NCBI GenBank assembly: GCA_014084085.1
Contig: NPFB01000008.1
Coordinates: forward strand, 388,085-452,084
Reading direction: 5' to 3'
Length of the DNA stretch: 64,000 nt
Source: Hondaea fermentalgiana
Taxonomy: Eukaryota; Sar; Bigyra; Thraustochytrida; Thraustochytriidae
Position numbers and translations under genes: made by a program. Positions 85 to 25,666 of the stretch are shown here, one piece after another. The notes beneath the pieces are model-generated. The model was not told the origin of the DNA. It made no database searches and saw only the letters and a list, made by a program, of their open reading frames with translations. The first letter of the stretch is position 1, and every line of letters starts with the position of its first letter.

Positions 85-849
85 ATGGGCCGCAACCTTC
101 TCGTCATTGCTCTCGGAGCCCTCGCGGCGACTAGCGCCGATGCTGCGTGTGAATTTGGAAAAGAGTACAAGGTCGCAAATTGCGAAGCATGGAACTCTCT
201 CTTAAGCACCTTCTCCTCGGGCGCATGGACGGTGTGCCAGGATTCGGTCGACGAGGACCCGTGCAATTCGAACTCATGCGCCAAGACCAACGGGTGGGTC
301 AACTGCAAGGATGGACGCCTCAAGAAGCTCACCATTGCTGAGGACATTGGCATGGCCTACAACACCTCGACTGATCTTGCGAACTTCACGTCCGCCTTTC
401 TTGAGATCGAGACCATGAAGTTCGAGGAGCTCACCATCATGAACCAGACCGCGCTGGGTCTCGACACTTGCCTGGACGAACTCTGCGGCACTGTGACCTG
501 CGACTTCACTTGGTCCGAGTGCACTGATACCTGCACCACCGACGGCATCTGCGAACCCGTCACGCCTTCCCCGACGGACGCACCAACCACCGCGTCGCCC
601 ACGGGCGCCCCCACCACTGCGTCGCCCACCACAGATGCACCTACTCCGGCGCCTACTGACCTCAGCACTTTTGCGCCCACGTCCGCACGTCCGGGATGCA
701 CGAACGCCACCGACCCGGACTGCATTACCGACTCGCCGACGGCCTCGCCCACATCGGCGCCTACCGACAGCCCGACCTCGGGTGCTGGCGCTCTCGGTGC
801 GAGCATTTTGGCTGTGGCCGTCAGCTTTGTCGGCGCCGCGCGTCTGTAA
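85..849 (+). CDS. GPI-anchored-type surface protein, one 12-Cys module plus Thr/Pro stalk
   Basis: This 254-residue protein starts with a clear signal peptide (MGRNLLVIALGALAATSADA). One module of about 135 residues follows with 12 cysteines. Its landmarks are an AW pair near the second Cys, W..C, DPC, V.C, a DTCLDELC segment and a final TDGIC. Next comes a stalk of repeated APT/SPT units with one Cys pair and an N-glycosylation sequon (NAT) near 700. The last 20 residues are hydrophobic and end in AARL with no charged tail, as expected for a GPI signal. The module is acidic (about -15 by hand count). The W..C...DPC...V.C spacing recalls the capping domain of leucine-rich repeat proteins, but no LRRs follow. 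Function is unknown; a cell-surface or extracellular-matrix role is inferred. It is the first of six paralogues reaching 13550. Confidence 0.9.
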   Translation: MGRNLLVIALGALAATSADAACEFGKEYKVANCEAWNSLLSTFSSGAWTVCQDSVDEDPCNSNSCAKTNGWVNCKDGRLKKLTIAEDIGMAYNTSTDLANFTSAFLEIETMKFEELTIMNQTALGLDTCLDELCGTVTCDFTWSECTDTCTTDGICEPVTPSPTDAPTTASPTGAPTTASPTTDAPTPAPTDLSTFAPTSARPGCTNATDPDCITDSPTASPTSAPTDSPTSGAGALGASILAVAVSFVGAARL

Positions 850-1201
850 GCCGTCACATATGACGCCAACTTGCATCTACAAAGACTTTGCGATATCGGA
901 ATGCGGCCGCTTCGCAGCTCACTTCTTCTCAAGGGGCAGTTCACCATCGAGCAGGGAGCATGCCAAGCAAGCAAGCAATTGAACGTGACCGAAGCTGGAG
1001 AGGTCTGAAACATATTGACAGCATCCTCCACGTTTCGAGCCACGTCCCATCCCCGAATTTCTTCAAATGACATAAGCATGAAGTCTTCATCTTGAGCTTA
1101 GCTTTCAACGTTTCATCTCTCCTTTTGTCTTCCGATCATTGAGTTGTCGCTCCCACTTTTGCATGCATGCGCAAAAAGACTCACCAGCTTCTTCATCTTA
1201 G

Positions 1202-1345
1202 CCGATTCGCACACGTTTCTCGACTACTTTTACGCCTGCCAACAGCACATCCTCGACTTTAGCGCACTCGGTGCGAGCATTCTGGTCTGGTCGCGACGGT
1301 CAGCTTTGCAATCATTGCGAGTAAGTTGTGACGAATATACGCATC
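1202..1345 (+). pseudogene. Relic of the 3' end of a GPI-type surface-protein gene
   Basis: This stretch aligns almost colinearly with 728-870 of the intact gene at 85-849. Shared blocks include ccga.tcgc at 1202, cgcctgcc.acagc at 1232, the near-identical ctcggtgcgagcatt at 1267-1281, gtcagctttg near 1299 and the gtaag spanning the stop codon. One frame still reads ALGASIL, as in the intact C-terminal tail. No start codon or cysteine module is recognisable upstream, so only the stalk end and GPI-signal end of an old duplicate survive. Homology was judged by eye. Confidence 0.7.
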
Positions 1346-3000
1346 GAGCTATTCGAGATATTTCATAGCTCGTCGACGCTGAGAAAGTTGAGCCTTTTCA
1401 AACTTGTGAGCGAGTTCATCCCTGAGCTCTCAAGCTTCCAAAAAAGGCGACTTTTTCTCGCGAGAATGGGTTTCATGAACAACAAGGAAGTCTCACAGGT
1501 CATCGGTGCATTATTGAGTTGCTAACTGGCCGGCTTCAACCTTGAGGTGAGCATGGACATGCTCGACCGTTATTTCAAAAAGCATACTCAGGGCTGGACC
1601 GGGACCCAATCTTCGTCGAGTGAAGCTGTTGCTCGAACATTTCAGCGCCGTCAATCCTAGACTGGTTGAAGACCAACTTGTGAAACGAAGGTCGAGTGTT
1701 TCTCGATGGGAAAGACCAACGCCTCAAATCCTTAGAAAGTGTTGAAGTATGAAGAGTCGAATGGATTGCTAGTATGTCCAGGTACACCAGGAATGCCTGG
1801 GTTGTTTCGCTTCTGCTAGGAGCGAATTGGTGTGATGGTGCAGATCGATATTCTTTCCATCCTAAACGTTTGTCTAGAGGATATGGTGTAGAGCTTTAAA
1901 AGTGATTACGAATCTCTTGGCTGTGCTAGTTCATGTTACGAGCGATGTGAGACTTACCTTGATGTATCATGAACTAGTGGCTGTCGGGAGAATGGGCGTA
2001 TAGCGGCGCGGCGGTCTACAAAAGACTGCACATGGGTGCCAAGTTAACTTCATTCCTTTTGTGGCGCTGCTGTCTGTTCACGTCATTTCCATTTCCCAAA
2101 TGAAATCCAACATACGTCGTCGAGCTCATTCTGATTCCGGGAAAGAGGCTGTTGCCAAGAGGCACCGAGTTGCAACAACGAAGCACCAGCATCTGGTGGT
2201 TGATGACGAGCTGATCGGAACACGATCACCAGGAATTCTACGGCGCGAACGGAGCCGCCACAAGCCAGGGAATGCCGCCGAAAGAGTGATGCAGTCGCAG
2301 ATTCGTTGTAGAGAATTATGCTTGCCACGAAACATCCCGGCGAGGAAGACTATTGCGGCGGGGAGGACGTTGCGCAACATCAAGCGGCGAATGGTCTTCT
2401 CGAATTGTGTGACAAAGTGTTCAATTTCCCTGGTTTCATGGGCGGCCGCGGCGTCTTAGCAGGCCGAGGCTACCGTGAAGAGGCGATGTGGTCAATCGTT
2501 ATGAGCAAAGTTGCATGATTTTTATGCATGCAAACGCCGCTTCCGGCCTGTTTTCAGCTCTCGATGACCAGCTGAGATCCATCCGGGGATGGGAAAGGAC
2601 GCACGAAAAGGTCAGACTCGACAAAGCATTACACCACAAATCATTCTCGTTGGGTAAAAGGCCTTTAGGCTAACTCGTTCTGCGAGCGTGCATTATGTGC
2701 GGTGACAATAGCAAACGAGCAAGTGGAATGAGCATAACAAGCAAGGTTCCACTACACATCCATGAGTCAGCTTCTCGTGGCCCTCACTCTTGTCATGATC
2801 AGTGGCACTCCAATAGGTGCTGCACGTCTCACCATGGAATAAATCGATCGATTTCAATAGACAGACTTTGGCGCTGTGCACGGTCTTAACTACAATTGCG
2901 CGCGTTCATTTTGACTTCTGCACCATTCATCGTCGTCATTGCTGCAATCGTGCCTGCTTACCTTCGCCCTCTCAGGAATTTGGGTAAAGCAAAAACATGA

Positions 3001-3170
3001 TTTCATCTTAGTGTCTGATTTTTCTCTCAAACTCTGAAATGATTAGTCTTGGGCAGAAAACCACTCGTCTTGCCCCTCACTGCTTTTTCATCTTAGTGTC
3101 TGATTTTTCTCTCAAACTCTGAAACGATTAGTCTTGGGCAGAAAACCACTCGTCTTGCCCCTCACTGCTT
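3001..3170. repeat. Tandem duplication, 2 x 85 bp
   Basis: Bases 3001-3085 and 3086-3170 are identical except for one T/C difference (3040 against 3125). Near-identity points to a recent duplication. No coding or structural role is visible. Confidence 0.95.
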
Positions 3171-3240
3171 GAAGATGTGCTTCATTGCGGCAAGAATGAA
3201 GCACTCTTGAGCTTGAGGGACAGGTGCAATCCTTTCTCCT

Positions 3241-3257
3241 CCCCCCCCCCCCCCCTC
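3241..3257. repeat. C17 homopolymer
   Basis: A run of 17 C, continued by CT-rich and T-rich sequence. It is one of four long oligo-C tracts in intergenic DNA of this window. Confidence 0.95.
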
Positions 3258-3490
3258 CTCCCCCATTTTTTTTTCTACTGCCGCTTCGGGCTCACGCGCC
3301 GGCGGTTCCATTCGCATTTCGCGTCTTGATCCTCCTTCTTGTGTGTGCACATGGCCTCATTGCACAGCCCGTCAGCTAACGAATCAATGACCATCTATTC
3401 GATGGGGACTTCGCGCTATCCGTTACACCGTCGGTCCGCCGGACGACACCATCGCCAGTCTCAGCTCTACACTTGCAGCGCACCCACAGT

Positions 3491-3523
3491 GACAGTGGCG
3501 CGACAGTGGCGCGACAGTGGCGC
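3491..3523. repeat. 11-bp unit repeated three times
   Basis: The unit gacagtggcgc occurs three times head to tail and then decays. It lies about 210 bases upstream of the start codon at 3735, so it may be in that gene's promoter. Any regulatory role is unproven. Confidence 0.9.
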
Positions 3524-3734
3524 GATAGTGGGCAAGGGTTCTCCGCGCCACGTGCTTCCGCGCAGCGATGGTCTCGAGAAAGTAAGTTTGGCGAGTCCGC
3601 GCCGCGCTTCGCAGAGCCTGCGATAGCTCAAGTCTGCGCCGTCGCCAGACCACGAATCCGCCAGGGACTCGACGCGTATATCTCAGGAACCCCGCCACAG
3701 ACCTGGAGCTCAAGCTCGTCGAGATCAACGCAGC

Positions 3735-4658
3735 ATGTCGCGCGTATTCCTCGCCGTCGCTATACTCGGCACGCTGACACATCAAGGCGAAGCAGCATGC
3801 AGCTTCTCCTTTCCGTATCGGCAGCGCGCTTGTCTGGCGTGGAATGCGCTAGGTGACGCATTTGATCGAAACAACTGGAACGTGTGCTCCACCTTCGTCG
3901 ATGGCAATCCATGCGCGTCAGGCGCCTGTCCACGCGCAAACAATCTCGTCACATGTAGTGGTGATGGCCGCGTGACGGCAATCCAGATCCAAAGTGATAT
4001 CAATATGCAGTACGATGGCGTCAGCGACCTAAGCACGCTCGAGCAAGCCTTTGTGGATATGACTGCTGACCGCCTGACTGAAGTCTCCATTACAAATCAG
4101 GCGAATCTTGACCTCGACCAGTGTTTGGACTCGATGTGCAACGCTGTGACTTGCGACTTTACCAACTCAGGCTGCACCGGTAGCTGCACTGACGATGGAA
4201 TTTGTGTTCCAACACCGGCTCCAACTGCAGCACCAACAGCGAACGAGTGCACGTTTTCGAACCAGATCAAGCGGCGCAACTGTCTCGTCTGGAATGCTCT
4301 TGCTGACGCTTTCCAGTCACAAAACTGGAACGACTGCCAAAATGATCGCAACGTGAACCCATGCGTCAGAACTTCGTGTGCTCGACGGAATAGACTCGTG
4401 CGGTGTCGCAAGGGCATGATCAAAAAGATCCGCATCAGAAAAGAGTTTGGGCTGTCGTACGATGGAACCTCGGATCTCACGGCCTTGACGACCCGAATCA
4501 ACGACATCAAAACTGACAAGCTCAAGGTATTCAAAATTGAGAACAATGCAGGTCTCAACCTAAATGTATGTCTTCCAAGTCTTTGCGACTCGATCAAGTG
4601 CAGCTTTGTGAACTCCCAGTGCACTGGAACGTGCACAACGACAGGCCTATGCGCTTAG
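3735..4658 (+). CDS. Secreted protein with two 12-Cys modules (acidic then basic)
   Basis: The 307-residue protein begins with the signal peptide MSRVFLAVAILGTLTHQGEA. Module 1 (about residues 21-155) and module 2 (about 170-307) each contain 12 cysteines in the same order. A short PTPAPTAAPTA linker separates them. There is no GPI tail: translation stops just after the last module cysteine (TTGLCA). By hand count module 1 has about 6 basic and 17 acidic residues and module 2 about 22 basic and 11 acidic, so the protein is strongly bipolar. Module 2 resembles the second modules of the genes at 7156 and 9208 more than its own first module, which indicates an ancestral two-module gene. Secretion is well supported; function is unknown. 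Confidence 0.9.
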   Translation: MSRVFLAVAILGTLTHQGEAACSFSFPYRQRACLAWNALGDAFDRNNWNVCSTFVDGNPCASGACPRANNLVTCSGDGRVTAIQIQSDINMQYDGVSDLSTLEQAFVDMTADRLTEVSITNQANLDLDQCLDSMCNAVTCDFTNSGCTGSCTDDGICVPTPAPTAAPTANECTFSNQIKRRNCLVWNALADAFQSQNWNDCQNDRNVNPCVRTSCARRNRLVRCRKGMIKKIRIRKEFGLSYDGTSDLTALTTRINDIKTDKLKVFKIENNAGLNLNVCLPSLCDSIKCSFVNSQCTGTCTTTGLCA

Positions 4659-5082
4659 CTCAAGCGTCATTTCGAATTTACGCTTTATCTCTCATCATCA
4701 AGTATAAATGAATGAGCACATTTTTCTTTCCTTCGCTCCAAACTCGACCTTTTTATTCCCTTTCGCGGCGGCTTAACGAGTACTCGAGCTGCTCTTTCTA
4801 TCTTTCGCTGCAACTAAAAGGTTGAAAGTATGGTCACAGCGTCGCACGAGATCTGTCGCTAGCTTTTTAGGGGCGTGGACAAAAAAAGGAATGAGCGCGA
4901 ACATACGTAAAATGCTATTGAGAAAGTCAGCGTGAAAGAGTGAGGCTTTGGCGGAGAGCAAAAACAGGCAAGACAGAAATCTTAATGTGGATGCCGTCGG
5001 ACGTATTCTACCATGCATTGCCATGGTTGATGTAACATGAATGAATGAATGAATGAATTAATGAATGAAAACTTTGTTTGAT
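4659..5082. other. Convergent intergenic spacer with ATGA repeat
   Basis: This 424-bp spacer separates two surface-protein genes that end toward each other. An (AATG)n tract lies at about 5037-5068, next to the stop codon of the minus-strand gene. No gene or RNA was recognised. Confidence 0.7.
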
Positions 5083-5877
5083 TTACCAAAGCGCGCTGAT
5101 AAGCATGGCAGCCGCAGAGAGCAGGCCGATCTCCATGGTTGACGATGCCGAAGGGGCATTCGCAGTAGGAGCGATGGTGGGCGCAAGGGTGCAGTTCGTG
5201 GAGTTGAAGTCGCAGTCAGGGTCCTCGCGGATATCAATGTCCAATGTCGGCGCCTCTGTGGGGCCCATAGTCGGCGCCTCAGTGGGAGACGCGGTAGGCG
5301 AATCCGTCGGCGAAGACGCCTCCGTGGGGAGGGGCGTCGGGGAAGTCTCTTCGGTCGGACCCGAGGTCGGCGCGCTCGTTGGTGTCATGGTTGGCATCAT
5401 CGTCGGGGCGCTCGTCGGGACACATACACCATCAGAGGTGCACGAGCCGGTGCAGCCCGAGTTGGAAAAGTCGCACGTCGTCGAAGCGCAGGCGTCCACG
5501 CACTGATTCAAGTTCAGACCAGCAATGTCCGGCATCGAGATACTGTTGACCGTTCCCAAGTTGGCGATGGCGGTGTTCAGATTCTCAATGTCGTACGACT
5601 GATCAAAGACCCAGCCGTCGCTGGAGCCGACGGTGATGCTCGTAATAGCGTAGCTCGAGCAAGTAATGTAGCCTTCAGCCTTGGGGCAGCCATTGCAGGG
5701 GCCTCCGTCGGTCGCGAAGTCTGCGCATTTGTTCCAGCCAGCTTTCTGAAAGGCATCCATCAACTCATTCCAGAGCTGGCAGCTCTTTTTATGATTCGCA
5801 TTGGACTGTGAGCAAGCGGCGCTTGCGTCCTTGGCGAGAAGAGCCAGAGCGGCCACTACGAGGATGATGCGCGACAT
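5083..5877 (-). CDS. GPI-anchored-type surface protein, one 12-Cys module plus Thr/Pro stalk
   Basis: The 264-residue protein starts with MSRIILVVAALALLAKDASA, a signal peptide. A single 12-Cys module (about residues 21-150, net charge about -8) follows, then a stalk of PT, APT and SPT units. A conserved pre-anchor block contains two Cys and the sequons NST and NCT. The hydrophobic C-terminus ends in ISALW, typical of GPI addition. Its module is nearly the same as the first module of the gene at 7156-8136 (shared MPDIAGLNLNQC and CDFSNSGCTG), so these two genes exchanged or duplicated sequence recently. Role unknown, presumed surface or matrix protein. Confidence 0.9.
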   Translation of the reverse strand: MSRIILVVAALALLAKDASAACSQSNANHKKSCQLWNELMDAFQKAGWNKCADFATDGGPCNGCPKAEGYITCSSYAITSITVGSSDGWVFDQSYDIENLNTAIANLGTVNSISMPDIAGLNLNQCVDACASTTCDFSNSGCTGSCTSDGVCVPTSAPTMMPTMTPTSAPTSGPTEETSPTPLPTEASSPTDSPTASPTEAPTMGPTEAPTLDIDIREDPDCDFNSTNCTLAPTIAPTANAPSASSTMEIGLLSAAAMLISALW

Positions 5878-7155
5878 TTCTACTTGATAGGTTTCCGTTC
5901 AATTCAATCTATGCTCAACTTTACTCGTCAACAAGAAGCAGGTATTCTCGTCTCGTTGAGCAATTGAGGTTTGCTGGCCATTGACGAGGTATGCTTGCCA
6001 ATGGACACCCAAGCGTCTCTTGTCGGCCAGAGGAGTGCATCTCGCGTGTCACTTAGGTGACGCCTGTCGTTTCACGGCCCATGGGGTGTATTTCGTATCC
6101 ATTTGGAGTTCCATGATGGTTTCTTCTCCTTTTGTAATATGTTCTAGAAACAAAAATCAGTCAACGCTCAATCGTAGCATGACCCCCTCGCGCAACCTCT
6201 CTGTACCCTTTCGGCCCTCTTAAACCATTGCGGCCCAGCTCTGTCCCAACGGCTCTACCGAAGCGAAGAAACCGAACATTGGACAGGCCCTCGACGCAAG
6301 CGTCACTCCATCATTCTTGCACTTGATAGTAAACAGACAGAGCATAAATGGTCTGGCTTGCTCGGAACCCACGAGGCGTTACCATTTACCTCTAGGAGCA
6401 ACGCAGCTGGAGTAGTAGCTGTCTGCTTGAGGAAGGAAGACCCCGCGAGACTCGCCATCCAACTCATTTCCTGAGCAGACAGTCTTCGAAGGAAGAGCCA
6501 GAGGTGGGAGGGTCAGAGCTTGAGCTCAACGGAACTGTGCGTGCGTATGTTCGTTGCGAGTTTTGGTGCAATGACTGCGTGGCCCTTGCGGCCGCATGCT
6601 CAGTAGCATCTGCAGATAGATGGACAGACAAACAAACAGACAGACATTGGAAAGCTTAGCTTCTTTGTCAGTAGTATTATGCGCTAAAAAGATGACGGGC
6701 CGAGGCTAGACGACGCTCTGTCCGTCGCTTGGAAAAATTCTCCAAAGTTCAAAGTTAGACATCAAGCATCGTCAAGTTGTTACTTTGTTTCAACGGCTCT
6801 CTGCCTACTACGAAAGGAGGGACATGAAGGAGTTCGTCAGTCATTTGAGACGTTCCGAGCCAAGGGCTCTGATGGTCAAGTGGCATGGCCTTCTGGGACA
6901 TGCAGCAAGCTTCAGGCCCCTGAGGCATAGATAGCTCTGGGTCTTACTGTGAGGCGAGTCGATGAGGGCCAAAAGCCAAGGGCTACGGAAACGGCACAGC
7001 AGCGTGCGAAGCCGAGTGAAGAAACATAGGAAAAGGAAGAGGGAAAAGACAAAAGCTTGTACAGCGGTCCGAAAACAGGTATTCTAACTTGCTCTTTGTC
7101 TTATAGACTATGCATTCTGGCCATACTGGTAGCAGTAGCCTAGGGATGAGAATTT
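5878..7155. other. 1.3 kb intergenic interval, no gene seen
   Basis: Only short ORFs without recognisable domains occur. A CAGACAAACAAACAGACAGACA-like simple repeat lies near 6622-6645. The distal end presumably carries the 3' flank of the gene at 7156 and the proximal end the promoter of the gene at 5083. Confidence 0.6.
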
Positions 7156-8136
7156 TTACTCGAGACAGCGTCCATTGTTCGTGCATTGTCCAGTGCAAGT
7201 CGAGCGCGTGAATCTGCAGCGAAGAGTGTTGCAAATCGTTGGGAGGCACTGATTGAGGTTCAATGAAGCTTGACGACGAATCAGAATGAGACGAAGTCGA
7301 TGGTATCTTTTGAGTTCGAGAAGTGCATCCTGAAGAGGCCCGAGATCGGTACTACCGTCGTATGAAAGCCCATTCTCTTCGATAAAGTTGATGACAGTGA
7401 TGCGGCCGCGGTAGCAGCGAACGAGACCTTCCTTTTTGGGGCATGCTCCATAGGAGCAGGGATCCGTATTGCGGAAATCGCCACACTTGTTCCAGCCATC
7501 CGCCTGAAAGGCGTCCGCGAGAAGATTCCATACCCTGCAGTTGCGGTATCTGTAGCCCGCTTTGTAGTCGCAGTTCATTTCAGTCGGCGGGTTGGTGGGC
7601 GCAGGCGTGGGCGAGTCTGTAGGGGACGACGTGGGCTCAAGCGTTGGGGCAAGGGTCGGGGGTTCAGTCACGCAAACACCATCAGAGGTGCAGGCACCGG
7701 TGCAGCCCGAGTTGGAAAAGTCGCAGGTCGCCGAGCTGCAGACATCCAGGCACTGATTGAGATTGAGGCCTGCGATGTCTGGCATCGAGATACTACTTAC
7801 TGTCCCCATGTTGGCGATGGCTGTGTTTAAATTCTCAATGTCGTACGCCTGGTCGTAAACCCACCCGTCGCCAGATCCGACGTTGATGCTTGTGATAGCG
7901 AAGCTCGAGCAGGTAATGTAGCCCTGAGCCTGGGGGCAATTATTGTTGCAAGGGCCTTCGTCGGTCGCAAAGCTTGCGCATTTGCTCCAGCCAGATTTTT
8001 GAAAGGCGAGCGACAGCTCATTCCAGAGCTCGCAGGCTTTCCTGTGGTTCTCGTTGGTCTGTGAGCAGACGGCGTTCGTATCCGTGATGAGCAACGCCAA
8101 GGCGGTCACCACAAGGATGATGCGCGACATGCTCAC
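7156..8136 (-). CDS. Secreted protein with two 12-Cys modules (acidic then basic)
   Basis: The 326-residue protein has a signal peptide (MSMSRIILVVTALALLITDT, cleaved near NAV). Module 1 (about residues 25-158, net about -9) and module 2 (about 190-326, net about +8) each have 12 Cys and are joined by a TLAPTLEPTSSPT-like linker. Translation ends at GRCLE with no GPI signal. An alternative start at the second Met changes only two residues. Module 1 is very close to that of the GPI-type gene at 5083-5877, while module 2 matches the second modules of the genes at 3735 and 9208 (LSYDG..DL and LNLNQCLP..C). This makes it a chimaera-like partner of the anchored paralogue. Function unknown. Confidence 0.9.
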   Translation of the reverse strand: MSMSRIILVVTALALLITDTNAVCSQTNENHRKACELWNELSLAFQKSGWSKCASFATDEGPCNNNCPQAQGYITCSSFAITSINVGSGDGWVYDQAYDIENLNTAIANMGTVSSISMPDIAGLNLNQCLDVCSSATCDFSNSGCTGACTSDGVCVTEPPTLAPTLEPTSSPTDSPTPAPTNPPTEMNCDYKAGYRYRNCRVWNLLADAFQADGWNKCGDFRNTDPCSYGACPKKEGLVRCYRGRITVINFIEENGLSYDGSTDLGPLQDALLELKRYHRLRLILIRRQASLNLNQCLPTICNTLRCRFTRSTCTGQCTNNGRCLE

Positions 8137-9207
8137 GCGTCGCGGTTGTCGATCGCTTGCCTTTCGAGTCGCTTGTCTGGTTCTCCTTCCCTATCCTCAC
8201 TCTTGTCTTTGTAGTTCCGGGTTTACGGAATAAGCCAATGGATACCTTTCGATCTCATCATGAATGCTTGGTTCACATCTTACCTGTTTCCGCGCCGCGC
8301 CGTAAACATCACCAGGTAATCCAATAGGCGCTGCGCTTTTGATAGCGGCTGACCAAGTGGACGAGCCGGCCGCGCTGTCCGCAATCAAGGACGCGTCCGC
8401 GGCGCCACAGCGCCCGCTACGTTGAACGGATCTCTACCTCATTTTCTCATTTTCTCATTCTCTTATTCTCCCTCTCTTTCTCTCTCTCTCTCTCTGTAAT
8501 CTTCGTGATGGATAGACCCCTCCTTCTCGTGGGCGGCTGATGTCAAGGCTACGGAGACGCTGTGCAGAGATGGATTGCGTGCAACGATTCTACGTCGCTC
8601 GTGCTGACGCAGACGGCGACGCGGAAACCAATCCAAGCTCGTCGCTTGCTCCGGTCGTTCTCTGGACATGCATAATTTTACTTTGGTCTCCTGCTCTCCG
8701 AGGCCGAGCTGAGGTGTTCCAGTCAGTTTGGCCACCCAATGGAGCAAGCATTCTACGGAACAACCGTCAACGAGAGGGAAGCCGCACAACTGTCAACAGA
8801 ATTGAAGCGCAGGCTATCGTCCAGAGCCTCCATTTCAAGTAGGTGAAGGCTCCCTCGAAGGCTTCGAGACCGAGATCAATGGCTGGGTTTCGCAACGGAT
8901 CATTTTGCAGAATTCCAGCAGAACATCAGAGACGATGTTTCACTTGTATGCAAGAATTACACTTGGCGAGCCAGAGATTATCGGAGCACAGGGATCTTGG
9001 TCGGAGATAGGGACAGGTGAGATCGCTCACGCACGTTCACAGCAGCATCGCCGTACAGTACATTTTGCACTGATAGAATGATTGTGAGCTGGCTCGAGGC
9101 AAGGCGACCGCGCGGTATTTCGCTTCAGATCGGTCAACGTAAGTCGGCAAAAGCTCAAGTTTTGTTGCAATAGTAAGGAACACATGATAAAGGGAAAACG
9201 TCTTTCT
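8137..9207. other. 1.1 kb intergenic interval with CT-rich microsatellite
   Basis: A degenerate (CTCATTTT)n tract passes into (CT)n at about 8436-8496. Short ORFs around 8463-8842 lack recognisable features and overlap each other on both strands. No gene supported. Confidence 0.6.
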
Positions 9208-10305
9208 TTAGGCCTGGCAATTGCCGCGTTTGTCAATGTTCGAGAATGTGGATCCCTCAAAGTTGCACTGCAACACCTCGCAGATCCTGGGAAGGCACTG
9301 GTTCAGGTTTAGGTTCTTCTGTTTCTTCAAAATGAACTTGCGCAGTGTCCCGACTTCCTCGAAGGCCTCCTGCAGCGGGGTGAGGTCGCGAACACCGTCG
9401 TAGCTCATGCCAAACTCCCTGGTGACCCGAACCTTGATAAGTCTGCCGCGCTCGTTGCACTTGACAAGGTTACGGTACTCCGCGCAGGACTCCCTTCCGT
9501 CGTGGTGGAGGCTGCACGGGTCTCTGTTGTAGAATCGCTTGCAGGCATTCCACTGCGAGGCGTCGAAGGTATCGGCGAAGGCGTTCCAGGCAGCGCACTG
9601 GTGCCGACGGTGGCGCAAGGCGTACTTTTTGTTGCAGACCGGCGCAGGGGTAGGCGCATAAGTCGGCGGGAAGGTGGGCGCTGCCGTCGTGGGCGCCTCT
9701 GTGGGACTCTGGGTGGGCGGCGTCGGGGCGCCCGTTGTCGGAGCATTAGTGGGCGCTGCCGTTGTGGGCGCTGCCGTCGTGGGGGCGTCCGTTGGCGCGG
9801 CCGTGGTGGGCGCCGGAGTCGCGCATGATCCATCGGCGGAGCACTCGCCATAGCATTGCGAGTTCGAGAAATCGCATGCAATTTGAGAGCACATCTCGGG
9901 CATGCAAATGTCCATGTTCAGAGCAGGCTCATTTCCGATCGTAACTGATTGGAGGTAAGGGTCGTTGGCAACTGCTTCAGCAAAGGCTGAGAGATCATTT
10001 TGAAGCGAGAGGCCAACATTCGAATTCGCGGCAGGGAACTGGATAGACGTGATTCGGAGATCACCCGTACTTCCTTCGCAAGTGAGAAATCCCTTGTTGC
10101 TCTCACAAAAGCCGCAGCCAGTCCCGGACGAAGACGTTCCTGTGCAGACTTTCCAGTTTGAAGACTTCTCCCAATTCGGTCCATCGAAGGCCTCGCGGAA
10201 TGCCAACCACGTTGCGCAGCTGACGTCATTCATTTTGCCGCAGCTAGTGGCCTCCGCTCCACTCAGGAGCATGGCCGAGACGGCCGCAAGGAAAAGAAGA
10301 GGCAT
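9208..10305 (-). CDS. Secreted protein with two Cys-rich modules; second module lacks one Cys pair
   Basis: The 365-residue protein has a signal peptide (MPLLFLAAVSAMLLSGAEAT). Module 1 is a divergent 12-Cys module (net about -10) with an insertion in its first third. A long linker of APTTAAPT repeats precedes module 2 (net about +9), and the protein stops just after the last Cys (RGNCQA) with no GPI signal. Module 2 keeps Cys 1-9 and the final Cys but lacks the two cysteines at positions 10 and 11, where the others read C(T/Y)G.C. Joint loss suggests those two form a disulfide. This is the most divergent copy of the array. Confidence 0.88.
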   Translation of the reverse strand: MPLLFLAAVSAMLLSGAEATSCGKMNDVSCATWLAFREAFDGPNWEKSSNWKVCTGTSSSGTGCGFCESNKGFLTCEGSTGDLRITSIQFPAANSNVGLSLQNDLSAFAEAVANDPYLQSVTIGNEPALNMDICMPEMCSQIACDFSNSQCYGECSADGSCATPAPTTAAPTDAPTTAAPTTAAPTNAPTTGAPTPPTQSPTEAPTTAAPTFPPTYAPTPAPVCNKKYALRHRRHQCAAWNAFADTFDASQWNACKRFYNRDPCSLHHDGRESCAEYRNLVKCNERGRLIKVRVTREFGMSYDGVRDLTPLQEAFEEVGTLRKFILKKQKNLNLNQCLPRICEVLQCNFEGSTFSNIDKRGNCQA

Positions 10306-12644
10306 CTTGCTTGCTTGGCGTCACAACCACGCGCCCCCCTTGTTGACCCTGTCTGGTGACGCTCTGCTTATGCCTGCCTTGCTTTTGCCCACACGCACGC
10401 AGCGTCCAGTTCAGGAATTGCTGCTTCAAGCGGCCAGTTCAGGTATTGCCCGTCAAAGTTCTGTGGCAGGCAACGTTGATCTGCGGACATCATCAGCGGT
10501 TTCTCAGCTCTCCTTCCAAGAGATCGTCCCTCCTCGTCCATTGTCTGACACCCTTTCAGCCCGTCTGCGCCTCAATATGTTCGTTAAAGTATCCGTTTTC
10601 CGAAGCCCGCAGAACCCTACAGGAGGCACGCAGCCCGGCAATTCTCGCCACAGAAAATATTACCGTTTTGAGAAGGACGGATCATTATGATCATGATGAT
10701 TGTCGTCTCCCTGGGAGAGTGAGAGGTAGAGAGATCAACCTGCAGCCAATCGACTGCGTCTCTGAACGATTGCTGCGTCCATCGTAGATGCCTCGAGTGA
10801 GGTCGCTCGGTCCTGGCCCTGGTCAGGCAAGCGCCTGGATCGACGAATAGTAGCCTAGGCAATTTTGCCTTGCAAAGGTAGAGACGCGTCGAATGCCCCC
10901 ATCAGCGATCGGTGGCGGGCCATCAGCGGTCGTTGGCGGGGCTGGTCTATCAGGTTCCGTGTCACGCGACCGCTACTGGCTTACTGTTCTAGGCCTGGAG
11001 GCCTGGACCCCCATTTTTTCCCCCCAAAAAAACCACATCCCATGAAGTTACAAGACGATTCTTCCTTTTTCCAAGAAGGGAGTTTGCGTGGCTTACGTTG
11101 GAATCTGCATCAATCAGGCATGATCTGGCAGTTTCGTTAACTGCGTCAGCGCAAACCGCAACGGATCGTCATCAAGCCGAATGGAAGTGAACGCGGTGAG
11201 GGCCGAGCGCACCCATCCTCGATTGGTCAATATTGATTGACCAAGGCAGACGAAAGTTACTTGCGCTGCTTGCAAAGCTCCTTGCTCAGAGCTGGCAAAA
11301 AAGACATGATTTTCGCGCATTGTTACTTTGGGTCAGACAAGGTTGGCGACAACACCGTCATCGCAGGACTTCAAAGCCATGCAATCTGAAGTGTGATTTT
11401 ATAATAAAAAGCACGCGTACCAACCAGTAAATGCGCAGAGAACAGTGCTGGCCCGGTGCTTCTTTGAGGCTATGGGATAATTTTTGCCAGAGATGTTCGT
11501 AGGAGCAAGACGGCGAAGCTTTGTCGCCGAAAGTCTGTTGCGGCTTCACCAAGTCACGTGCTTGCACATACTTCTGGACCTTTCTTGGGGACCTGTCTCG
11601 TGATCATTCTGGTCAAAATGTACTATATTTTGGAAGTGCTTTTCGTCTCTCAAACCGTTGCGTGCCATCCAGACTTCTACAAATACGGTTGGCTCAATAT
11701 CGGCGCCAACGAGAGCTCGTGTACCTGCTCTATGGGGCGATGCATGATTTTCTTCAGCCTTACGGTACTTGCCCAGGAAAAGAAGCACTTGGGCGCAAAG
11801 AAGCTTCTCCCTTGGAAAAGCCTGAGATGGATCCACCGTAACGGACTCACCAACGCAGAGCCGGACTATATACTTCTTCCCCATTTTCTTGTGTATTAAG
11901 CCTGAACGAAAGTTTCATCAACGCAGCAAGCATGACGCTCCCTCCCTTCTCCTTTTGAAGGTCGTCCCATGTTCCTGGCACTGCGCCTGCTGGCTAGCTG
12001 GATTCCCCCCCCCCCCCCCCCCCCCCCCCACGCTGGCTGCCCACCTAGAGTCTCGCCTGCAAGCAGTAAAGAAGTAAAACCGAGTCGGCCCATTTCTCTG
12101 TTGAAGACTTTGAAGCTCGTTACGCTCACGCGTGAGTTGATGCGCACAAGAAACAGATAGCTCACGCACGCACGTCCTGGCTGTCTGGCCCGGGCGGCCT
12201 TGCTTGGCCCGCATCGTCAGGCGGCGAACGTGGCCGTGTGTCGATGCCACTGTGCCACAGTGAAACGTGCGGCCCAACGGCTATTTGGCCCGCAGAAGGC
12301 CACAGATCAATACACGGCTGATATGTGAAAAAGCTCAGGTCTAACGCGCGCGACAAGGAGGGGCGGAGAAAGGGAGAGATAAAGGAGATAAAGAGACTTC
12401 GAGCGAGCGTGAGCCTGGACCTTCAACGGCCATGTCCCGCGCGACAGTTTCGAGATGGCCAAAGTCGTGCTTGGAGAAGAAGAAACGCGAGAACACGCGG
12501 CACCGACGTCTCCCGCGCAAAGAAAATTTGAGCAAACCCATATTCAAGCAATCCGACTCCAAGACAAATCAATCCTTTGCCAAGGCCCGCAGAACAGCGC
12601 AAGGCTTGCTATTGAATAAAAAGCGACCAATCAATCGATCAACG
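10306..12644. other. 2.3 kb intergenic interval with C27 tract
   Basis: Overlapping short ORFs near 11520-11900 run on both strands and show no recognisable domain, so none is called. A C27 tract lies at 12005-12031. The last 200 bases before 12645 are purine-rich and probably form the 5' leader of the next gene. Confidence 0.6.
12005..12031. repeat. C27 homopolymer
   Basis: Twenty-seven consecutive C make this the longest homopolymer in the window. It could form G-quadruplex or i-motif structures, and its true length is likely to be uncertain in the assembly. Confidence 0.95.
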
Positions 12645-13550
12645 ATGTCGCGCTCTCTTCTTCTCGTTGCCTGCCTCGCCCTTCTCACGAAGAGCGCTTT
12701 TGGGTACGACCTTCCTGCCGAATGCGACATCGATGATATTGATAACGCAAAGTTGAGCTGCGCGTTCTACTACGAGCTTCGCAACGCATTTCAGGGCGAC
12801 AGCTGGTCTGCGTGCAAGAGTATTGATTACAGCAAGAGAATCTGCAACCAATGCCCTGGCAACAAGAACTGGATTACTTGCTCGAGTGGCCTCATTACTT
12901 CCTTCGCGATTACGAGCGAACAGAACTTCGTCCTCGACACGGACTACGACCTCACCAACCTGAACGCAGTCATGACGGCAATGGCGGCTGGAGGATTTGA
13001 AACCTTTACGCTTCAGAACCAGGCGTCTGCCGGTATGACCGAGTGCTTTGATGCGTGCTCTGATGTTACGTGCGACTTTTCCAGCTCAGACTGCTCTGAT
13101 TCATGCACCACGAATGGCGTCTGCCCTACCTCGGCCCCCACTGACGCCGTTGCGACCCCGGCCCCCACTGATGCTGCCGCCACTCCGGCGCCTACCGACG
13201 CTGCCGCCACCCCGGCGCCTACGGATGCCGCCGCGACCCCGGCCCCCACAGAACTTGCAACTCCGGCGCCGACCGCTGCTGACGAGACGCCCGCCCCTAC
13301 GGACGAGGTCGTGACTACCACTCCTGCGCCCACGGCTGCGCCCACGGCCGGCCCCACGACTGCGCCCACGGACGGCCCCACGGCTGCGCCCACGGACCTC
13401 GATGTTGACGATCGCGAGGAGGAGGACCCGTGCTCCAACTCGACTCTCGCCAACTGCACGATGGCACCCACGCCCTCGCCGTCGGGCGCTGGCATGCTCG
13501 AGGTTGGCGTGCTCTCGTTCGTGCTTGCGCTCAGCAAGGCCTTCTGGTAG
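12645..13550 (+). CDS. GPI-anchored-type surface protein, one 12-Cys module plus long Thr/Pro/Ala stalk
   Basis: An in-frame ATG exists at 12432, but the intervening 71 residues are basic and unlike the family. The ATG at 12645 gives a proper signal peptide (MSRSLLLVACLALLTKSAFG) matching the paralogues, so it is chosen (301 residues). One 12-Cys module follows (about -14 net). The stalk has regular APTDAAATP units and then TAAPTAGPT units. A pre-anchor block with two Cys and sequons NST and NCT matches the block in the gene at 5083. The hydrophobic tail ends SKAFW, a GPI-type signal. Role unknown; a surface protein is inferred. Confidence 0.9.
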   Translation: MSRSLLLVACLALLTKSAFGYDLPAECDIDDIDNAKLSCAFYYELRNAFQGDSWSACKSIDYSKRICNQCPGNKNWITCSSGLITSFAITSEQNFVLDTDYDLTNLNAVMTAMAAGGFETFTLQNQASAGMTECFDACSDVTCDFSSSDCSDSCTTNGVCPTSAPTDAVATPAPTDAAATPAPTDAAATPAPTDAAATPAPTELATPAPTAADETPAPTDEVVTTTPAPTAAPTAGPTTAPTDGPTAAPTDLDVDDREEEDPCSNSTLANCTMAPTPSPSGAGMLEVGVLSFVLALSKAFW

Positions 13551-20005: not shown

Positions 20006-23000
20006 ATGATTGCTATGATAGCGTTCGTCGCTGTCCATCTCGCGATCATCGTCGCTTCCGCTCAAGGTACAACGCAGGCGGTTGCTGATCGTAGCGCGAG
20101 CATCAACGACTTTCCGGGCTGTACCATCCTTGGCCATCCTCATTGGTCGGAGGACCCCATCAAGGAGATCAACGAAGTGGCTTCCGCTGCTGACTGCCAT
20201 GATCAATGCATGAACCTCTGGAAAAACTCCAGATATCGGGGCATCCGTATGTGGGGAGGAGGTCATGATGATACCGTTCGTCACGCTGGTTGCTATGGTA
20301 AAAACTGCGCTTCATCAAGGACAGGTGACACCGGCAGTTTCCACTCATCGTCGTATGAGCGGTGGAGAGTGCAACCGTGCTATAGGGGTAAGCTGACGAA
20401 ACCCACACTTATTAGTTCCACGGCGAGCGAATACAAATCATTTGCGTCCTACCCACGATATGCTAAGTTCGAATCGGCTGCATACCGCCGTCCGAATAAG
20501 CTCAACGCGTACATGACCAACACTCCATACATTTGCAAGTGGGCTCATGAGTCTCAGGATTACGAGGGGGCAACCGAAGCGTTGGAGCCGTGTCTCGGCT
20601 GGGCCTACAACTCCGCTGCACAGACTTGTGAGCTGTCACGTTTGGCACCTGAGCAAAGTTCATCCGTTTCAACTGAAGCCTCGACGCTCGTTACCGGGAG
20701 CTTGTACTGCAAGAATGACTTTGATCAGGAGGACTTGGCGCGAAAAATCGCGGAAGTGTACGGGTTGCCGGGATGCATGGTTCAGGGCATTGCTTGGACG
20801 AATACAAGCAAATTGGTCAAGCGTATTGAGGACAGTGATGCGGTGATGACCCCTCACGACTGTCGTCTCTATTGTCAGGAAGAAGACGAATGTGTCGTTT
20901 TTAGCTTCACGATCGAGTCTGGGACAGCCAAGTGCAAACTCTACGAGGCCGAGGCTGTGCTTTATCCGATTGACGATGACAACGCGAACCGTTATTCTGG
21001 AATGAAGGACTGCCACACCTGCCTTCCCGGATACTACGTCAGCGATTCAAATCCCGCGGACGGGAAGGACAGCTGCGAACCCTGCCCCAAGGGCTACACC
21101 TGCGACATCGAAGCAACGCCTTGCCCAGGAGGAAAATTTTGCGGAATTGAGGGACTCACAGCGCCACTGGACCCCAGCGAGACCAACAAGTGCGAAGATG
21201 AAGGTCGGAGCGGCACCGGCTGTGAACACCATGTATGCAGGGATTCCCCGCTCGCTGAAGTCCTCAATGAGCTCGATTTTCAACCAACCCCGCTCGACTT
21301 TTTCAATTTCTCCAAGTACGCCCTACCAACCGAGACTGAGCATGATGATGGATGGGCCTTGATTCAGTCCTTGCCGCCTTCAGGTAGTAGCAACTCTGAT
21401 CTCCGCGTTTATTACACTGCTTCCTTCAATTATATGATTCCCCAAGCGGTCGTCAGCGGGTACGTTTTGGAGATTTTCCGGGCAAATAACACTAAAGCAG
21501 AATTTTACTCCTCTGCTGGCCGGGACAATTTCGACTTTAGGGACTGTTCGGTGGCCCAGAACACAAAAGGTGAGGTCGAAGAGCTATTTCTCGATTCCCT
21601 CGCTGCCGAAGCGAGCATTGGCGACGACATCAAAGCATGCTTAAAGCTTACCTGGGCAAATCCGAACAAGCCCTCGACATGGGATCTCGCTTCTCCAGAC
21701 GCAGAAACAACGAAAGAACAAGCAGTGTCGTGCATCAGCACGACGATCCGCTTTCTCGCCCGCGTTAACTTCCTTGTGAACGACGTCAGCGGGATCGCCG
21801 GGGTGGACGAGGTCATCATCACCTACAAAGTTGGGGATAGCGACGAGGAGTTTCAGGTCGTTACCAATGGCCTCGGGCAGAAGACCATCGATTTTTTCGA
21901 TGACCAAACCGACAAGTATTACTCGACAATCACTATTGTCAGCGCGTACAAGAATAGCATTCCAACCGATATCTTGCTTTGCGAGGAAGCAGGAAGCTGC
22001 TCGACGCCAGAAACCTTGCCTGCAACCGTCACAGGAATTAATTTTCTTCAGGAGCATAACATTCGCCTCGTGGACACGATGAGTCGCACTCTTTCTGGCC
22101 AAATCGTACAATCTTTTGACGGGACTCGGTGCAATGTCGCCTACGTTCGTGTGGAGGCCTTTGATGTAAACGCGGACGCGGAAGAAGCCGCCATCGCGGG
22201 GACATACTCGACCGAGAACGGGACGTTTGCGCTGAACGTACCATTGAACACCGTCACCAGGCTTGTGTTCACGTTGGCAGATCATACTTTTGAAAAAGCG
22301 GACGACACAAACGAGGAAATCGAGGAGCTCCTAAGCGCGTCAGGTCTTATGATCGAGGAAGACATTTCTGGGATCATTGTCAGCGATGTGACCACCCGCA
22401 CACTAAGCCTACGTGCCGGTGCTACACAGTGTGGCATTCACGTTGGCGACGTTGAGCTAGCTCTCAAGGTGCAGACGTGTGACGATGTCGAGTTATCGTT
22501 TTCAACGAGCGACGTGAACACGGAGTTTATAGTTCCTGCGGCTGCTTATGAGTTCGACCTCGTTTTTGCTGGCAAAGAGGGGCTCACCGAGTACGACATT
22601 GAAGTCTTGCAGGAGAGTTTCGACTATCAGTTTCCCGATGCAGCAGCTCGAAGCCTAAACATGTCATCGGGCGACCTCAACATTACAGCAGTGCATGAGC
22701 CCGAACCCGAGCTCAAGGTCGCAGTCACATCTGGCGAAGTGCTTGTTGACACAAGCGCTTGCTCTTCAGATTCTCCATTCGATGCAGCGATCGAGGGAGG
22801 GCGATTGGTCACCTTTATCATGACCTCGACACAGTCGTACAAAGACGAGGTCTGCTATGAGGTTCCGCCCGACACGGTGATCGAAGTCATCAGCGAGCTG
22901 TCCCCGGAAAATGACGTCAACTGTGATTCTAAATTGCCCTGCTCGGGACCTTTCTTTATCGCAGAGTTTGACGCAATCAATAGGTCCGTGGCAATCGCGA

Positions 23001-25666
23001 ATCTCATTTCCGGCGAGCCGAAGAATCCAATCGACGGCGACGTGCTGGAAGACTTTGTGCGGCACGTCAGGTTCAGTATCCGGAATGCCAACGTCTGGTC
23101 TACGACTACTACGAGCACTTTTCGTGCGCTTGTTCTGGGTGACAAAACTCTGCGCGAGGCCACTACATTAGCTTTCGCCAGTGAAGACTCCGTTCCTCTT
23201 GAGTATCTCTACTCGCCTCCAGCCGGACTCGGTTCGTTTTCTGTTCTCGAGACTTACGGGTCGTACAAGGTGCAGTCAAGCATGCAAGCAATTGTCGAGA
23301 ACGAAAACGGTGTCGAAGGAGGAATCGCTGTCAATACTAAAGCGAAGATTTTTGGTGCAGAGGTTGAGAGTACTCGTGAAGTGACCGCTGAATACCTTAG
23401 AACAGATGTCGATTCGTACGAGGATGAAGTCACGGTTGAGACCAACGCAAGCTCCTTAACTTTAGAAACATCGACGGAACAAACAGGGAGTGACGCAGAC
23501 ATGGTGTATCTAATGGGCAGCGTGGCGAACATCACGGAGGCTGTGCACGTTTCGTTCAACGAGAGCACGTGCGGCATCACTGCGGATCCAAGTATCACCT
23601 GGGGCAATGAAGTTTCGTCGCTGGTGTACTATTCTCGTGCAGCATGCCAGACCTCCCTCGATCTGATCGACCGGACTATCGAAGTTGAAAAGGACAATCT
23701 TGAGTCCAGAGAGCTTGTCGCTTTGGCCAAGGAGAAACGTAGTCGCTGGCTTGATCTTCTTCAGCACTGGGATCAAGATCGGCTTGCAGCCTTCAGTAAT
23801 CCATTCGACCTCACCGGCTTGGTCGGCGATGCCGAAACCGGAACGGAAGCTGTCAATCGCTTGCAGCTGAGCTCAGGCTCGGTCTCCTTAACTGTGGAGA
23901 AGGCAATTGAAGCGGAAAGCCTCGTCGACTATACTTCCTATTCCAACGCGTGGGGCGTCGGCGTCAGTGTGAGCGAGTCTGCCGGCGGATCGGCTAATTT
24001 TGGAATCGTTTCTTTCGACGTGACGGCCGAGGTGTCCGCTTCTTATTCATTCGTGCAAACCACGTCCAAGGAATGGTTGACTTACGAGGGCGATTCCTCG
24101 TCCTCAAAGGTGACCTCGTACATTGTCCCCGGAAGTAATGGCAATGAAGTCTGTCTCGAAGTCTTTCAATCCCCGTACAGCGGCACATTCGTTTTTCGCG
24201 TGTGCGGTGGCATTACATCCTGTCCTCACATTCCTGGGACGGATGCGCGAGAGGTCATCGCTCTATCATCAGAAGAGCTTCCGGCATCCGAGCTTACAGC
24301 GAATGAGGGAAGCTTTTCGTTTCGCATCGACACATCGTCCATGCCCGTTGCTGACGACTCGATTGATCTCTCCATCTCGCTGGACTCACCGAGTGCCACG
24401 GGAACGATCGCTTACAGCATTGGCGCTTCAAGTCTTCATCAGCCCGTCGACATTTCGATGAGTGCCGGTGAAAGTCAGCTCGTCACCGTCTTTTACGAGC
24501 GACTCGATGAGCGCGTCGTGTCCAGCACAGTCGTCGTTCAGGTTGCCTCTGCCTGTGATGAGGGCATCTCGCGGAGTCTCTCGTTCAGGCTGAACTGGGC
24601 GACGACATGCCCGACAATTGACTGGGACGAGGATCTCGCCGAAGCCACAAGCACCTGGGCATTGACCTCGGCCTCGCCGACGCTTTCCCTCCCGTTCTAT
24701 CGCGGGCCAGCTTCCAACGCTGCGATCACTTCCTCAGTCGCTTTGTGGGCGGCACGCTTTGATGGATCCGCAGCTGTCGGGGACTGGTTCGAGGTAACAG
24801 CCTTCGATCCCGCGAGCCTGCTTACCTTGGCTGAATTTGCAGAAACGAGGGTCGAAGAAGGTCGTTTCCTCTTTGAGCTGCGCGCGACCTGTGCTCTCGA
24901 TGGTCATGGCGCTGGCTCGGCGCGGTCAAGCCGGCGCCTCGGAGTCTACGACACCACAGGGCCGCGTCTCGTCAGCTGGTCTCCCTTGCGGAACGTGCGC
25001 TCTGCAGCAAGTTCATTTCCAATTGCTACCTTTCGATTCAACGAGCCCATTGATTGCGCTCACGACGATCTTCTCGCCGTCGTCACTGATGCCGCAGACG
25101 TCTTGACTGCAAACACAAGCATCGTGTGTTCTGCGCAGCTGTATGACCTTACCGTCGTGTTGGAAGACGTCAACGATGCTGAGACCGCAGCGCTGTGGAG
25201 CAATGCGACCGCTAGAATCGTCCTCCAAGGGATTCACGATTTGTACGGCAACGGAATGGAGGCCGTGGTTGCCGGCGACGGCCGTCGCGTGCTTGCTGCG
25301 GGCAACATGTCCAAAGCCTTTGTCATGCCCGAGCTTCCTGTTGATGCGTTTGAAGAAGGTGCTGAAGGTTCGCTGTCTCGCTGGGCGCAGCAGGATGCAG
25401 CAGACAAGCTTGACTTGGTCCAAACCGTGCTACGTCGTACAGTTCCAAGTGATCAAGCGCAGCCAGGAAGCTTTCAGGACGAGGACACGACGTCTTCTAG
25501 CGCTGGGTCGTCGCAAGCCCTCGCGATTGGACTTGGTGTCACCGGAGCTGTCCTCGTGATCGTGGGTTCTGCTCTTGCAGTTTTGTGGCGGCGGCGTCGG
25601 GCGGCACGGCTGCAAGAGGATAAGGGCGATAGTCGAGAGTGCAAGGTCGTGGCACCCTTGGTGTGA
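20006..25666 (+). CDS. Very large type I membrane protein with PAN-like domains and a GCC2/GCC3-like segment
   Basis: This 1886-residue ORF begins with a hydrophobic signal peptide (MIAMIAFVAVHLAIIVASAQ). Two Cys-rich PAN/apple-like segments follow (about residues 33-125 and 250-335; the second contains CRLYCQEEDECVVFSF). Next is a GCC2/GCC3 or growth-factor-receptor-like Cys cluster (about 335-390). About 1,400 residues of beta-rich sequence come after, with many NxT/NxS sequons and two segments reminiscent of carboxypeptidase-regulatory folds (TLSGQIVQSFDGTRC near 695). One transmembrane helix lies at about 1837-1860, with a short RRRR-started cytoplasmic tail. The topology implies a glycosylated cell-surface protein with a giant ectodomain. 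I do not recognise the central region or a specific family, and no enzymatic motif was seen. Confidence 0.85.
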   Translation: MIAMIAFVAVHLAIIVASAQGTTQAVADRSASINDFPGCTILGHPHWSEDPIKEINEVASAADCHDQCMNLWKNSRYRGIRMWGGGHDDTVRHAGCYGKNCASSRTGDTGSFHSSSYERWRVQPCYRGKLTKPTLISSTASEYKSFASYPRYAKFESAAYRRPNKLNAYMTNTPYICKWAHESQDYEGATEALEPCLGWAYNSAAQTCELSRLAPEQSSSVSTEASTLVTGSLYCKNDFDQEDLARKIAEVYGLPGCMVQGIAWTNTSKLVKRIEDSDAVMTPHDCRLYCQEEDECVVFSFTIESGTAKCKLYEAEAVLYPIDDDNANRYSGMKDCHTCLPGYYVSDSNPADGKDSCEPCPKGYTCDIEATPCPGGKFCGIEGLTAPLDPSETNKCEDEGRSGTGCEHHVCRDSPLAEVLNELDFQPTPLDFFNFSKYALPTETEHDDGWALIQSLPPSGSSNSDLRVYYTASFNYMIPQAVVSGYVLEIFRANNTKAEFYSSAGRDNFDFRDCSVAQNTKGEVEELFLDSLAAEASIGDDIKACLKLTWANPNKPSTWDLASPDAETTKEQAVSCISTTIRFLARVNFLVNDVSGIAGVDEVIITYKVGDSDEEFQVVTNGLGQKTIDFFDDQTDKYYSTITIVSAYKNSIPTDILLCEEAGSCSTPETLPATVTGINFLQEHNIRLVDTMSRTLSGQIVQSFDGTRCNVAYVRVEAFDVNADAEEAAIAGTYSTENGTFALNVPLNTVTRLVFTLADHTFEKADDTNEEIEELLSASGLMIEEDISGIIVSDVTTRTLSLRAGATQCGIHVGDVELALKVQTCDDVELSFSTSDVNTEFIVPAAAYEFDLVFAGKEGLTEYDIEVLQESFDYQFPDAAARSLNMSSGDLNITAVHEPEPELKVAVTSGEVLVDTSACSSDSPFDAAIEGGRLVTFIMTSTQSYKDEVCYEVPPDTVIEVISELSPENDVNCDSKLPCSGPFFIAEFDAINRSVAIANLISGEPKNPIDGDVLEDFVRHVRFSIRNANVWSTTTTSTFRALVLGDKTLREATTLAFASEDSVPLEYLYSPPAGLGSFSVLETYGSYKVQSSMQAIVENENGVEGGIAVNTKAKIFGAEVESTREVTAEYLRTDVDSYEDEVTVETNASSLTLETSTEQTGSDADMVYLMGSVANITEAVHVSFNESTCGITADPSITWGNEVSSLVYYSRAACQTSLDLIDRTIEVEKDNLESRELVALAKEKRSRWLDLLQHWDQDRLAAFSNPFDLTGLVGDAETGTEAVNRLQLSSGSVSLTVEKAIEAESLVDYTSYSNAWGVGVSVSESAGGSANFGIVSFDVTAEVSASYSFVQTTSKEWLTYEGDSSSSKVTSYIVPGSNGNEVCLEVFQSPYSGTFVFRVCGGITSCPHIPGTDAREVIALSSEELPASELTANEGSFSFRIDTSSMPVADDSIDLSISLDSPSATGTIAYSIGASSLHQPVDISMSAGESQLVTVFYERLDERVVSSTVVVQVASACDEGISRSLSFRLNWATTCPTIDWDEDLAEATSTWALTSASPTLSLPFYRGPASNAAITSSVALWAARFDGSAAVGDWFEVTAFDPASLLTLAEFAETRVEEGRFLFELRATCALDGHGAGSARSSRRLGVYDTTGPRLVSWSPLRNVRSAASSFPIATFRFNEPIDCAHDDLLAVVTDAADVLTANTSIVCSAQLYDLTVVLEDVNDAETAALWSNATARIVLQGIHDLYGNGMEAVVAGDGRRVLAAGNMSKAFVMPELPVDAFEEGAEGSLSRWAQQDAADKLDLVQTVLRRTVPSDQAQPGSFQDEDTTSSSAGSSQALAIGLGVTGAVLVIVGSALAVLWRRRRAARLQEDKGDSRECKVVAPLV

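Follow-up and report, generated by a model that had tools for sequence, protein, structure and literature searches.

Extracellular leucine-rich repeat (LRR) units are the closest described counterparts of the proteins considered here. Platelet GPIb-beta is a very short capped LRR unit of this kind, with animal cap types and a transmembrane anchor but nothing like the charge-paired second module described below, while in the plant complexes of LRR-extensins (LRX) with RALF the cationic part is a separate peptide. In the excerpted text of PMC5809528, LRR concave faces are said generally to bind proteins or ligands, and that of the plant protein PRK3 is cationic, negatively charged proteins being proposed as its partners. 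Charge also operates in the LRX-RALF complexes, which interact with pectin in a charge-dependent manner (excerpt of PMC12759080). Here, we describe an array of six intronless genes (g1 to g6, strands + + - - - +) at positions 85-13550 of a 64,000-nucleotide stretch of Hondaea fermentalgiana DNA (the window), encoding nine copies of a module which is predicted to be a reduced LRR. The charge class of the module matches its position in the protein in all nine cases, first modules being acidic and second modules basic. This split, absent from an earlier note on the same DNA, is the most useful new lead.

Each of the six open reading frames (ORFs) is open from ATG to stop at the coordinates below, where tails of the glycosylphosphatidylinositol (GPI) type mark the anchored members and net charges are given for the modules:
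g1, 85-849 (+): anchored, 254 residues, one module; signal peptide 85-147 and GPI-type tail 778-846 (both assigned from hydropathy alone); module g1a 148-552 (-14); Thr/Pro stalk 553-777; pre-anchor Cys pair 697-723
g2, 3735-4658 (+): soluble, 307 residues, two modules; g2a 3798-4205 (-11); linker 4206-4247; g2b 4248-4652 (+12)
g3, 5083-5877 (-): anchored, 264 residues, one module; g3a 5422-5814 (-8); stalk 5158-5421; pre-anchor Cys pair with sequons 5191-5214; GPI-type tail 5086-5157
g4, 7156-8130 (-): soluble, 324 residues if translation starts with the ATG at 8130 (the ORF list also gives a GTG upstream, at 8136), two modules; g4a 7672-8067 (-9); linker 7573-7671; g4b 7165-7572 (+9)
g5, 9208-10305 (-): soluble, 365 residues, two modules; g5a 9823-10242 (-10); linker 9637-9822; g5b 9217-9636 (+9)
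g6, 12645-13550 (+): anchored, 301 residues, one module; g6a 12723-13124 (-12); stalk 13125-13475; pre-anchor Cys pair with sequons 13431-13457; GPI-type tail 13476-13547 (the ORF list also has an ATG at 12432, upstream and in frame; the signal-peptide-like stretch begins at 12645)

All nine modules (131-140 residues each) can be aligned, which bears out the original count of nine copies of a module of about 135 residues in six genes. Sixteen columns are invariant, namely ten cysteines and Phe22, Trp27, Asp76, Phe120, Ser123 and Gly133. The description as a 12-cysteine module holds for eight of the nine; g5b has only ten, being devoid of Cys 125 and 129. Pairwise identity ranges from 23 to 80% over the 36 pairs and stays within 23-45% in 35 of them. 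Net charge lies between -8 and -14 in the six first modules (isoelectric point 4.05-4.10) and between +9 and +12 in the three second modules (9.1-9.4).

AlphaFold2 models were obtained for two of the nine modules, g1a (pLDDT 93.1, pTM 0.88) and g4b (pLDDT 93.3, pTM 0.86). When aligned with plant LRR structures by VIA-align, both models open with an N-cap made of a helix and a hairpin, after which come parallel LRR strands, and this part superposes on the N-cap and first parallel strands of plant LRR ectodomains and co-receptors (SERK, PRK3, BRI1, FLS2) and of PGIP. The LxxLxL core is found at turns 1 and 2 of all nine modules; at turn 3 the first hydrophobic residue is absent in eight, and all nine have CxF. 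We thus predict, on the basis of these models, that the module is a minimal disulfide-rich N-capped LRR solenoid with cysteines at hydrophobic-ladder positions of the last turn. An ice-binding reading (6w78) was dropped, as it appeared in a single row among many LRR rows. The viral structure library, searched with the g4b model, gave nothing at E <= 0.001. The models also align over residues 1-133 or 1-134 with 4hq1 and 7brc (13-18% identity), in which a compact LRR unit lies towards the end of the chain; 4hq1 is presumably of the TMK type and the aligned stretch its second short solenoid. In such receptors, however, the solenoid belongs to the large ectodomain of a receptor kinase. Compared with plant LRR receptors in general, the module has cysteines at ladder positions and lacks a kinase, a profile match and the Asn ladder. 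PRK3 has six repeats against the three parallel strands of our module of about 135 residues, but its cap disulfide C53-C62 is spaced like Cys 44-53 of the module and, as predicted for the second modules, its concave face bears a cationic patch (excerpt of PMC5809528).

Could the LRR likeness merely reflect a common helix-strand arrangement, without evolutionary meaning, in a separate Cys-rich fold? We consider this very unlikely in view of the superposition described above, though several observations would fit it. The Asn at repeat position 9 is not kept (N in none of the nine modules at turn 1 and in one at turn 2, with Ser in all nine at turn 3), and a Foldseek search with a module model gave E values of at least 0.77. 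In the Hondaea genome, LRR_8 has 138 matches and LRRNT_2 none (3 candidates scored), and a narrow, self-made N-cap motif was absent from the 20 LRR_8 loci listed among these matches. Sequence libraries also gave weak matches at most. Against Pfam-A at E <= 10, the nine modules matched no LRR or LRRNT profile and only DUF4946, in one module (E 0.058). The weak matches in Pfam (DUF4946, E 0.0099, and UL11, E 0.72, for g2; the PT disordered repeat for the stalks or linker of g3, g4 and g6), in NCBIfam (four families, each matching a single array member; best ICDH_alpha, E 0.012) and in a sequence search of the Protein Data Bank (PDB) were judged chance or low complexity. The module, first presented as unnamed, has indeed no family by sequence in the libraries searched, but its predicted fold is recognisable as a reduced N-capped LRR.

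Over the 27 columns of the predicted sheet, net charge is +9, +7 and +8 in the second modules versus -1 to -3 in the first. The difference between the classes is enriched on this sheet (p 0.0016, the true position being unique among 135 circular shifts), the 27-column set having been picked after the models were seen and being wider than the strict DSSP strands, on which the same enrichment is found at p 0.027 (5 of 135 shifts). Second modules carry extra Lys and Arg on the predicted concave sheet, and Asp at position 119, in the third strand, is present in all six first modules and in none of the three second modules.

The two classes of protein differ at their C-termini as had been proposed. 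In the single-module genes (g1, g3 and g6) the module is followed by a Thr/Pro stalk and a hydrophobic tail, with a small pair of Cys and N-glycan sequons ahead of the anchor, whereas the two-module genes (g2, g4 and g5) run on for only one or two residues beyond their last Cys. The best 12-residue Kyte-Doolittle mean of the last 30 residues sets them apart (2.27-2.48 in g1, g3 and g6 versus 0.37-1.10 in g2, g4 and g5), and all sequons counted (4, 2 and 2) are in the anchored genes, with none in any soluble gene. In sequence and hydropathy, g1, g3 and g6 are candidate GPI-anchored proteins (signal peptide, small-residue cleavage site, hydrophobic terminus), and we infer that the products are secreted and disulfide-bonded and that these three are GPI-attached. 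The note had offered function as inference, and this reserve was well placed. The division of labour suggested in the earlier note gains from the charge split, which is concentrated on the predicted ligand face, but not from gene adjacency: each anchored gene does adjoin a two-module gene, but this argument carries no weight because 10 of the 20 possible gene orders meet the same rule.

Our preferred reading, for and against which we judge the chances about equal, is that the array encodes a lineage-restricted mini-LRR family of surface and secreted proteins, in which the cationic second module anchors the soluble members on a polyanion. The anchored members would each carry one acidic module on a Thr/Pro stalk with a Cys loop, sequons and a GPI-type tail. 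The soluble members would consist of an acidic first module, a linker and a second module with a strongly cationic sheet (+7 to +9), whose face may dock on a polyanion; the likeliest candidate is the sulfated polysaccharide found in thraustochytrid walls and scales. A docked soluble protein would fix the specificity of its first module in the wall, while the anchored proteins would display the same specificity at the membrane. We favour a polyanion grip because LRR concave faces generally bind partners, that of PRK3 is cationic, thraustochytrid walls consist of sulfated polysaccharide (excerpt of PMC11642839) and the association of LRX-RALF with pectin is charge-dependent. The likeness to LRX-RALF is in workings only: LRR-extensins join an LRR domain to a Pro-rich wall part (excerpt of PMC12759080) and the stalks of the array are Thr/Pro-rich, but in the array the cationic part belongs to the polypeptide itself, as its second LRR-like module, and each stalked member has a GPI-type tail at its end. 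It is also conceivable, if rather doubtful, that the family forms a charge-coded modular coat, the mini-LRR having been duplicated and its concave face turned cationic so that the soluble proteins, joining a first (a) to a second (b) module, cross-link, or polymerise head to tail, as a genetically encoded coat of one thraustochytrid lineage; such linkers would bridge the GPI-anchored a modules and the sulfated wall polymer.

The main rival to the polyanion grip is docking on the acidic modules themselves: cationic second modules would chain soluble proteins head to tail, the chains ending on anchored proteins, to give a coat made of the array's own products. The opposite net charge of the module classes (nine of nine), the close first modules of anchored g3 and soluble g4 (80% identical) and the negatively charged partners proposed for the PRK3 patch (PMC5809528, in excerpt) are all in keeping with such an assembly, and the acid of the first modules, mostly on the helix side (net -3 to -7 over the convex set), offers a possible partner surface. 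However, first modules are near neutral on their sheet face (-1 to -3) and the ionic strength of seawater weakens simple charge pairing; we regard self-assembly as unlikely.

The array appears to be old. The synonymous divergence (dS) is beyond the range of correction in 16 of the 36 module pairs and at least 1.24 in 19; the exception is g3a/g4a, 80% identical, with a nonsynonymous divergence (dN) of 0.11 and a dS of 0.84. These values are consistent with old genes under purifying selection, unlike chance ORFs. The likeness of g3 and g4 (77-82% DNA identity) begins at the ATG and ends with the last Cys of module a; the best local match between their upstream 301 bases is 13 bases, and downstream nothing better than a loose match of 51 columns, in Thr/Pro-coding DNA, is seen. 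The anchored g3 and the soluble g4 thus have first modules with a more recent common origin, either by duplication or by conversion. In the tree, g2b, g4b and g5b lie on one side of a branch (80/92; 76% of bootstrap trees), which weakly suggests a single origin for the three second modules. The strong divergence inside one compact array (23-45% identity in 35 of 36 pairs), like the general binding role of LRR concave faces (PMC5809528, in excerpt), would also be expected of a recognition family in which the anchored members would act as receptors that sense food, substrate or microbes, the soluble ones would be released as decoys or bind in the manner of opsonins, and the charge split would merely mirror different ligands. 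The dN/dS of g3a/g4a (about 0.13, from 0.11/0.84), the sole unsaturated pair, indicates rather purifying selection with no diversifying sign, and we think it improbable that recognition of this kind explains the array.

Turning to the distribution of the preferred mini-LRR surface family, three protein searches of a 5.8-billion-sequence set (1133, 2219 and 72 candidates scored), which require common 5-residue words, found Hondaea proteins only. One of them recovered four of the other five array proteins and the annotated g2 model but missed g1, and because this known paralogue was missed the sensitivity is limited. The claim of a lineage-specific surface system with anchored and soluble forms is thus supported within these limits. 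Searches of the 36-Mb assembly, in which only the best candidates are scored, gave no copies beyond the array (eight matches with g2 at E <= 0.001; nine each with g6a and g5a at E <= 10). A stretch of 1170 N extends to the left edge of the window, so the array may be incomplete and copies possibly missing. With g2 as query, the annotated H. fermentalgiana protein FCC1311_009752 was matched at 100% identity over 76% of the length; its first 52 residues or so are encoded at 2318-2473 (+) and fused to the g2 body across about 1.5 kb, and it has neither the g2 signal peptide nor some 40% of module g2a. This public gene model seems wrong at its 5' end. No 8-10-mer is shared by four or more of the six upstream stretches (500 bases each, only 84 for g1). 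The array spacers contain stop-free stretches of up to 151 codons and may harbour additional spliced genes; the g1-g2 spacer also holds an 85-bp tandem duplication, 99% identical, at 3001-3170 (+).

To our knowledge, few building proteins of the labyrinthulomycete non-cellulosic wall or coat have been characterised. Our literature search gave no paper combining 'thraustochytrid' and 'GPI-anchored', and the excerpts it gave on labyrinthulomycetes and leucine-rich repeats contain domain counts only. If the preferred reading is true, the array supplies candidate wall or coat genes together with a fold and a way to test binding directly, and shows how far an LRR can shrink, with Cys replacing part of the Leu ladder, and yet evade the profiles used here.

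About 6.5 kb from the array, a 1886-residue ORF at 20006-25666 (+) has a signal-peptide-like start, matches the PAN domain (PAN_1, E 5.8e-5) and contains a hydrophobic segment close to its C-terminus, making it another candidate surface protein; the ectoplasmic-net candidates of Aurantiochytrium include a protein resembling the apple-domain adhesin MIC4 (excerpt of PMC12221091). Elsewhere in the window, a run of 100 N at 39466-39565 is perhaps an assembly gap, an ORF at 40775-42760 (+) matches the DOT1 histone methylation domain (E 7.7e-7) and a 780-residue ORF at 44652-46994 (+), with a weak DDE_3 match below cut-off (E 0.00041), perhaps encodes a DNA transposase. Finally, a 1250-residue ORF at 57379-61131 (-) carries TPR repeats ahead of a formin FH2 domain (E 3.1e-73), a pairing that is, as far as we know, unusual.
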